DNA from: Acidovorax temperans
Lineage (GTDB): Bacteria > Pseudomonadota > Gammaproteobacteria > Burkholderiales > Burkholderiaceae_C
Assembly: GCF_006716905.1 (NCBI RefSeq)
Contig: NZ_VFPV01000004.1
Span: 372,001 to 436,000 of the forward strand
Length of the DNA stretch: 64,000 nucleotides
Direction: 5' to 3'
The notes beneath the pieces were generated by a model. It saw nothing but the letters and a program-made list of their open reading frames with translations, had not been told where the DNA came from and made no database searches. Positions within the stretch are counted from its first letter, which is position 1. Each line of letters starts with the position of its first letter. Shown here one piece after another: positions 47,422 to 48,768 of the stretch. The position numbers and the translations under genes are program-made.

Positions 47422-47620
47422 TCTTTAAACCAGACCAGCGCGGTAGAGTCTGAACGCCGTTGAGGCGGCCAGACCGGCCCGTGCAGTTTGGTAGGCGCTG
47501 GGGTGATAGAGCCCGTGACTGAGTACAGAACGCATGGCCGCCGCGCTGGTCTTCGTGAAGCCCGAACGGTTACGCGCGCCTTGATTGAGCGCGCATGCAC
47601 AAGCAAGGGATCTGAAGATC
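47422..47620 (+). ncRNA. Candidate IS110 bridge RNA region
   Basis: The 199-base noncoding left end of the element, where IS110-group elements encode the bridge RNA that pairs with target and donor DNA. It contains GACTGAGTACA at 47517-47527, identical to the reconstructed target on the recombinase coding strand, centred on the TA core. It also contains ACGGTTAC at 47566-47573, identical to the element's right end running into the core (48592-48599). GC-rich segments able to pair (for example GGGG...CCC around 47500-47514) are present. RNA ends and folding are not determined. Confidence 0.65.
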
Positions 47621-48583
47621 ATGTCTGTTACCTCAGTGACGGTGGGCATCGACGTGGCCAAGGCGCACGTGGATGTCTGTGTGCTGGGTGCCAAGAGCAG
47701 CGCCCAGCGGTTTGACAACGATGCCGAAGGCCACTCGGCGCTGGCGGCTGCCCTGCAGCCCCTGGACGTGGGTCTGGTGGTGATGGAGGCCACCGGCGGC
47801 TACGAGGCCGCGTTAGCGTGTGCCCTGCAGGCCACAGGCCTGCCCGTGGCGGTCATCAACCCGCGCCAGGCGCGCGACTTCGCCAAATCCATGGGACGCC
47901 TGGCCAAGACCGACGCGGTGGATGCGCGCACGCTGGCCGAGCTGGCAGCGGTGCTGCTGCGCCGCGACGATCTGCAGCGCTTCTTGCGCCCCCTGGCCGA
48001 TGAGCGCCAGCAGTGGCTCGCGGCCCTGGTCACGCGCAGGCGCCAGTTGCTGACCATGCTCCATTCGGAGCGCCAACGGCTGCAGATCACGCCCAAGAAG
48101 CTGCACGCCAGCATCGAGGCCATCGAGGCGGCGATCAAGGCGCAGCTCGATGAGATCGAAGAGCAGATGGTCACGCATGTGCGCGAGCACTTTGGGGAGC
48201 TCGACACGCTGCTGCAGTCGGCTGCGGGAGTCGGCCCGGTGAGCAGTGCCACGATGATTGCCGAGCTGCCAGAGCTGGGCCGGCTGAACCGGCGCGAGAT
48301 CGCTGCATTGGTGGGCGTGGCGCCCATGGCCAATGACTCCGGCGGCAGCAAGGGCAGGCGGCGCGTACAAGGCGGGCGCTTCGAGATCCGCCGCGTGCTG
48401 TACATGGCAACGCTCACGGCCACCCGCTACAACCCGGCCATCAAGGCCTTCTACGAGCGTCTGAAGGCCGCTGGCAAGTTGCCCAAGGTCGCCCTGGTCG
48501 CTTGCATGCGCAAGTTGCTCACCACGCTCAACGCCATGGTGCGCACTGGAAAACCTTGGGACAAGTCGCTTCATTGCGCTTGA
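47621..48583 (+). CDS. IS110-family DEDD transposase/recombinase
   Basis: A 320-residue enzyme with the RuvC-like DEDD domain: Asp in [12 protein letters not shown], Glu in [10 protein letters not shown], and Asp-x-x-Asp in [13 protein letters not shown]. The C-terminal Tnp domain has [20 protein letters not shown] and the conserved serine in [15 protein letters not shown]. The ATG at 47621 begins the conserved protein; 12 residues of in-frame extension are noncoding leader. It acts with the bridge RNA to recombine a circular donor into a matching target. Reading frame intact. Confidence 0.92.
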
Positions 48584-48768
48584 CTTCGAAGACGGTTACT
48601 CAGTCGACATCCTGACGTAGGCTGCCGCAGGAATCAGGGAAGCAGGATTTTTGGGTTCAGCGTGTTGCATGTGTCCCCCAGCGAGAAGACTGCCAACCAT
48701 TGCGCGATAGGCGAAGGAGCCGCTTTCGCATTCGGGCAGACGTTATCAGTGAGGGCCAATCTCGCCTA

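Follow-up and report, generated by a model that had tools for sequence, protein, structure and literature searches.

Structure of the interrupted locus

The window, the whole stretch of 64,000 nucleotides of Acidovorax temperans DNA that was analysed, contains a large serine recombinase gene on the minus strand that is divided by an insertion sequence of the IS110 family. In the genome as a whole, a chromosomal dihydropyrimidinase gene has Variovorax-, Piscinibacter-, Rhizobacter- and Rhodoferax-like proteins as its closest named relatives, which makes an environmental betaproteobacterium the likely host. The genes at the locus are as follows.

45469–45966, minus strand: C-terminal part of a second RepB-like gene (PF07506), fused in frame to the recombinase, probably by deletion
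45967–47415, minus strand: remainder of the serine recombinase (His25 to approximately residue 507), with 98% identity to residues 24–508 of the intact homologue P0001
47621–48583, plus strand: IS110 transposase (bridge recombinase), 320 aa
48599–48670, minus strand: first 24 codons of the serine recombinase gene, encoding MQHAEP...YVRMSTE and matching P0001
48769–49269, minus strand: small first gene of a recombinase/RepB cassette, 53% identical to its positional counterpart in L174 over 77 residues

The larger recombinase piece, which begins HQQYSTDNQ and extends over 45469–47415 on the minus strand with the RepB-like C-terminus included, carries the Resolvase N-terminal and Recombinase domains in one chain (Pfam), as does the intact relative. 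An intact catalytic N-terminus is absent, the 24 codons with the YVRMS motif having been severed by the IS; the serine of this motif we take to be the nucleophile. With the nucleophile motif split from the rest of the protein, the gene can hardly work. The original prediction held that the recombinase had been silenced by another mobile element, and the separation of its N-terminus by such an element is evident, whereas the loss of function is our inference.

The transposase comprises the PF01548 and PF02371 domains (Pfam) and matches the NCBIfam model NF033542, 'IS110 family RNA-guided transposase', with 226.6 bits against a cut-off of 140. These matches and the flanking recombinase pieces bear out the predicted presence of an IS110-family element inside a large serine recombinase gene. 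Its structurally solved relatives are IS621 (E 1.5e-35) and ISCro4 (IS110 group, PDB 9t56; E 7.9e-35 over residues 8–318), the likeness to the latter concerning the transposase only. The D, E, KTDxVDAR and SG positions align, as judged by eye, with the IS621 residues named in the available portion of PMC11208158, and the chain thus appears to combine a DEDD (RuvC-like) domain and a Transposase_20 domain with a catalytic serine, as is characteristic of the IS110 group.

Elsewhere in the window, three overlapping minus-strand genes occupy 38111–43699, one of which (908 aa) has a Phage_integrase (tyrosine-recombinase) match below the cut-off, with no Pfam match for the other two. Pieces of DDE transposase genes (PF01609) at 44372–44758 and 35931–36674 are probably remnants of other IS elements, and a tandem 12-base unit, CTGCGGTTCCCC, is repeated in 7.5 copies with 97% matches at 49300–49390.

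Element ends and core dinucleotide

47416–48598, plus strand: IS110-group element, CTTGTA...GACGGTTA, 1183 bp with one CT core counted, delimited by the copies in its own genome and by homologous empty sites
47416–47417, plus strand: left copy of the CT core; the same place in intact homologous genes reads CT in 10 of 13 and GT in 3 of 13
48599–48600, plus strand: right copy of the CT core

The 4.65-Mb genome holds five nearly identical copies of the element, which diverge just outside these ends. Their common sequence runs from CTTGTATCTTT on the left, preceded by G in all five, to GACGGTTACTCAGTC on the right, and begins at CTTGTA or one base earlier. All five copies end alike, so the clearly different end points that had been named as grounds for doubting the insertion were not seen. 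The 106 related copies described below all start with CTTGTAT, which is no independent proof, because this word was the one that the script searched for.

Uninterrupted homologues place the junction to the base. Among the best 120 of 8000 scored homologous proteins, 111 read YVRMST[ED]HQQYST without a break and nine, annotated from an internal Met, read MST[ED]HQQYST. At the DNA level, 13 intact genes were recovered from the genus and family genome searches (54–70% protein identity to the interrupted gene); none of the 13 has extra bases at the junction, which is marked by CT in 10 and by GT in three. L163, for example, reads GCTGGTG-CT-CAGTCGACAT and L168 reads CTGCTGATG-CT-CCGTCGACAT, compared with CTGCTGATG-CT-CAGTCGACAT for the joined flanks of the window. 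Since the homologues lack extra bases, the six bases CTTGTA belong to the element, and on this comparison the core dinucleotide common to target and donor is CT, not TA.

The original prediction had set the ends at 47421/48599 and joined the gene across one TA, so that an ancestral site could be rebuilt and a 674-codon gene restored without change. These ends are wrong, and the rebuilt site is 6 bp too long. The TA join reads STE-YK-HQQYST, and its Tyr-Lys occurs in none of the best 120 of the 8000 homologues, which thus differ from the prediction exactly where it had proposed to check them, between Glu24 and Tyr25, by lacking Tyr25-Lys26. A TA core with a 12–14-nt target, GCTTGTA/CTCAGTCG, was ruled out by the same homologues. 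Joining across one CT gives a 672-codon frame, itself probably a deletion fusion (see below). Because the two joins differ by 6 bp, neither breaks the frame, and the mistake was thereby concealed.

No DNA copy of the empty site at this very locus was found among plasmid records, 47 genomes of the genus and 399 genomes of the family. The plasmid records gave one short match of 87% when an intact close DNA copy was sought, and the closest intact genes were 65% identical in the genus (47 genomes) and 70% in the family (sampled at 399 genomes).

A predicted bridge RNA in the left end

47420–47425, plus strand: −10 box TATCTT of the promoter of a would-be excised circle
47426–47620, plus strand: predicted bridge RNA, with both ends putative
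47494–47499, plus strand: left target guide GGCGCU, counting the core, located in the internal loop flanked by helices 4 and 5, with covariation at −1 to −4 in 34 elements
47517–47523, plus strand: right target guide GACUGAG, complementary to CTCAGTC; 12 pair types found in nature covary with their targets
47566–47572, plus strand: putative left donor guide ACGGUUA, the same letters as the right end ACGGTTA and nearly invariant
47599–47603, plus strand: putative right donor guide ACAAG, complement of the left end CTTGT and invariant in the 35 aligned elements
48580–48585, plus strand: −35 box TTGACT of the predicted circle promoter, separated from the −10 box by 17 bp and overlapping the stop codon of the transposase gene

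The 204 bases at 47422–47625 fold better than shuffled sequences (z = −3.33). The consensus structure of 35 distinct relatives (RNAalifold) has 41 pairs, 13 of them changed on both sides, and 98.5% of its cells are paired, a value reached in 0 of 500 shuffles; when partners are slid, pairing falls to 26–50%. A separate ViennaRNA run gave 59 pairs with two-sided changes in 19, and the figures of 41 and 13 are the ones adopted here. The predicted structure consists of a 5′ hairpin and then two stem-loops with internal loops, the layout given for IS110 bridge RNAs in the accessible part of PMC11208160. A long non-coding left end that encodes a conserved, structured RNA with two loops is thus predicted here, as in the IS110 group. 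An Rfam search of 47000–49000 matched no family up to E 5.

The second loop holds ACGGUUA and ACAAG, which both match the element ends and hardly vary across the aligned relatives. When the ends are joined, as in an excised circle, TAT[CG][TA]T is found in 37 of 37 distinct junctions, a count in which the first three letters belong to the search word, and TTGAC[TACG] lies at 17-bp spacing from TAT in 35 of 37. A promoter across the joined ends, as expected of the IS110 group, is therefore predicted from the junction sequences.

Covariation of guides and targets

47412–47415, plus strand: left target GATG, positions −1 to −4 of which vary in step with the left guide across the family
48601–48605, plus strand: right target CAGTC, which with the core is the exact complement of the right target guide

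For the comparison of guides with insertion sites, 80 of 199 relatives were taken, and with further loci 124 transposase matches were examined, 106 of which had a recognisable left end (18 did not). Removal of 14 duplicates, five copies without a recognisable guide (about 50% identical) and 21 for which the script found no right end left 66 sites; an earlier pass with stricter search words had retained 60. L062, counted as a duplicate, has its left flank in common with L026 and a different right flank, while L020 and L026 share right flanks. This pattern within one genome, one flank common and the other not, suggests rearrangement between IS copies, and a few sites are thus not fully independent.

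The 3′ side of the first loop reads NN-CTGAG and the target immediately to the right of the insertion reads CTCAG-N′N′. Over all seven nucleotides the right guide is exact at 50 of the 66 sites of 35 distinct elements, and its two variable positions agree with the target at 52. Scored by element, these two positions gave 58.4 of a possible 70 (35 elements, 12 pair types), compared with a shuffled mean of 22.7 and maximum of 42.2, and 0 of 100,000 shuffles reached the observed score. In 26 of 35 elements the guide agrees with the commonest target and in nine it does not; the 16 sites without an exact 7-nt match include L052 (TGTTT), L018 and L124. A quickly built tree of the 35 transposase genes, with 8 of 32 inner branches unresolved, implies at least 21 changes of the right-guide 5-mer.

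The left guide follows the left flank at positions −1 to −4, with 0, 0, 0 and 18 of 5,000 shuffles as high, respectively, and positions −5 to −7 displayed no covariation (65 sites, 34 elements in both cases). At the window's own left site, −4 and −1 match, −3 forms a wobble pair and −2 is mismatched. Target guides apparently complementary to the insertion site thus lie in the first loop, as in the IS110 group.

One Xenophilus genome provides an internal comparison: L008, with a guide ending in GA, lies at CTCAGTC, and five relatives with guides ending in TT lie at CTCAGAA (four) or CTCAGAG (one), a further copy, L017, being omitted as its right end was not found. Guide-matched target differences within a single genome imply that host sequence make-up is not the cause.

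At L048 (2820–4677), L049 (765–2554) and L051 (2825–4709), loci from one Tepidicella and two Tepidimonas genomes, a block of about 1.8 kb, 95–97% identical, contains the transposase, lacks the left end of the element and the first codons of the gene, and has the same right flank. The block starts at a tRNA-Phe gene in L048 and L051; no such gene was found in L049. This arrangement suggests a separate mobile unit that has captured the tail of an IS110 element.

History of the host gene

The intact homologue P0001, 98% identical, has 517 residues and ends in DYLVRMGAQIHLRKVA, whereas in the interrupted frame DYLVRM is followed immediately by the C-terminal portion of a RepB-like protein. A relative of the same genus (L163/L174) carries, in this order, a small gene, a recombinase (535 aa) and two RepB-like genes (300 and 293 aa), and the recombinase and RepB-like genes of this cassette overlap by four bases. 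There, the homologue of the C-terminal part of the window's frame is a separate gene, 1.3 kb past the end of the recombinase match (L161/L163, L174). A deletion of about 1.3 kb thus seems to have fused the 517-codon recombinase to the downstream RepB-like gene, with apparent loss of the recombinase's last codons, all of the first RepB-like gene and the start of the second, a reading that rests on relatives about 65% identical. The small gene upstream of the recombinase (48769–49269) has been retained. The recombinase gene was either altered already before the IS insertion or has been altered since. The pieces in the window match P0001 and the others of the best 120 of 8000 homologues among large serine recombinases with RepB-like partners, and the gene differs from these in being split by the IS and in running on into a RepB-like C-terminus.

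Proposed mechanism and alternatives

We consider it highly probable (about 0.94) that a CT-core IS110-group element inserted by bridge-RNA-guided recombination into the large serine recombinase gene of a four-gene recombinase/RepB cassette, by way of a circle promoter, loop guides and strand exchange at CT. By analogy with IS621, as described in the available text of PMC11208160 and PMC11208158, the right and left ends would join in the excised circle to form a sigma-70-type promoter, TTGACT-17 bp-TATCTT, from which the left-end RNA would be transcribed. This RNA would present target guides in its first internal loop and donor guides in its second, and the right guide GACUGAG would pair with CTCAGTC, which in this gene falls by chance within the Thr-Glu codons directly after the motif serine. 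Strand exchange at CT by the DEDD transposase would then place a copy of CT on either side of the insertion. Sequence comparison has shown where the element ends, that its core is CT, how the RNA is structured and that guides and targets covary; promoter use, donor pairing, strand chemistry and loss of recombinase function are what this model would add.

An element bounded at 47421/48599 with a TA core, inserted into a 674-codon ancestral gene, would likewise account for an open joined frame, the two joins being 6 bp apart, and for TA at both ends. We regard this version as scarcely credible, given that its Tyr-Lys is missing from the best 120 of the 8000 homologous proteins, that none of the 13 intact genes carries the extra bases and that CTTGTA, upstream of its left end, is common to the five own-genome copies. 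Recognition of the target by the transposase protein itself, with the RNA match a by-product of shared ancestry, deserves slightly more weight and is still very improbable. Target positions 3–5 agree with the guide at 65, 65 and 62 of 66 sites, and the guide hardly varies there, so that reading by RNA and by protein cannot be told apart at these positions. Two variable positions of the right guide and four of the left, however, follow the target at unrelated loci, with 12 guide pair types, and within one genome related elements with different guides have different targets, which argues for the RNA.

The motif had also been proposed as a common target of this IS, and an element specialised for serine recombinase genes, silencing rival mobile elements, would explain why the target encodes Thr-Glu in recombinases of this family and why one copy lies there. 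Only one of the 66 sites has a serine recombinase of the window's family in its flanks, as judged with a profile of that family, which distant resolvases could escape, over flanks of at most 1.5 kb on each side (six sites had only about 0.4 kb). The remaining four copies in the genome are situated within or ahead of unrelated frames (named by eye), and the exact target CTCAGTC is present in one of the 13 intact homologues (L163) and lacking in 12, seven of which read CTCGGTC or CTCGGTG. Such specialisation is thus most unlikely, and the proposed preference is not supported. The octamer GCTCAGTC occurs 72 times in the genome (33 + 39), and its reversed control 75 times (38 + 37). Under RNA-guided insertion, the position of the element next to the catalytic motif follows from the spelling of Thr-Glu as ACT-GAG in this gene.

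Relation to known systems and implications

The window element resembles IS621 of E. coli, also of the IS110 group, in that its bridge RNA is predicted in the left end. IS621 guides have 9 nt on the left and 4 nt on the right according to the available parts of PMC11208158 and PMC11208160; the right guide of the window element has 7 nt (CT + 5) compared with 4, and the left guide of its clade covaries at four non-core positions compared with seven non-core letters in IS621. Longer right guides are reported for some IS110 orthologues in the accessible text of PMC11208160, so a 7-nt right guide is not unprecedented. Elements of the IS1111 group (seekRNA elements) have the same DEDD transposase type, as stated in the portion of PMC11187229 available, but are distinguished by a guide RNA downstream of the transposase gene; in the window element only 15 bp separate the stop codon (48581–48583) from the right end at 48598. 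In the parts of the literature on IS110 insertion, bridge RNAs and recombinase/RepB that were accessible, no report of this insertion was found, which is no proof of absence.

The bridge-RNA mechanism is already known in kind, and this element adds a well-supported member, for which the ends, the core and the history of the host gene have been corrected. A join that keeps the frame can be misleading: here the frame stayed open despite the 6-bp error, which only the homologues brought to light. The probable knock-out of the recombinase is explained by the RNA guide and not by a special liking for recombinases. It is an even call whether target reading in this clade has shifted from left to right, with a 7-nt right guide (CT, a nearly fixed CAG and a hypervariable pair) and about four useful positions in the left guide, such that the pair acts as an address often rewritten by natural lineages and the clade forms a natural record of guide-RNA retargeting. 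The many natural guide/target pairs in related elements, sometimes within one genome, provide a useful test set for the targeting rules of bridge RNAs, in particular for those with a long right guide.
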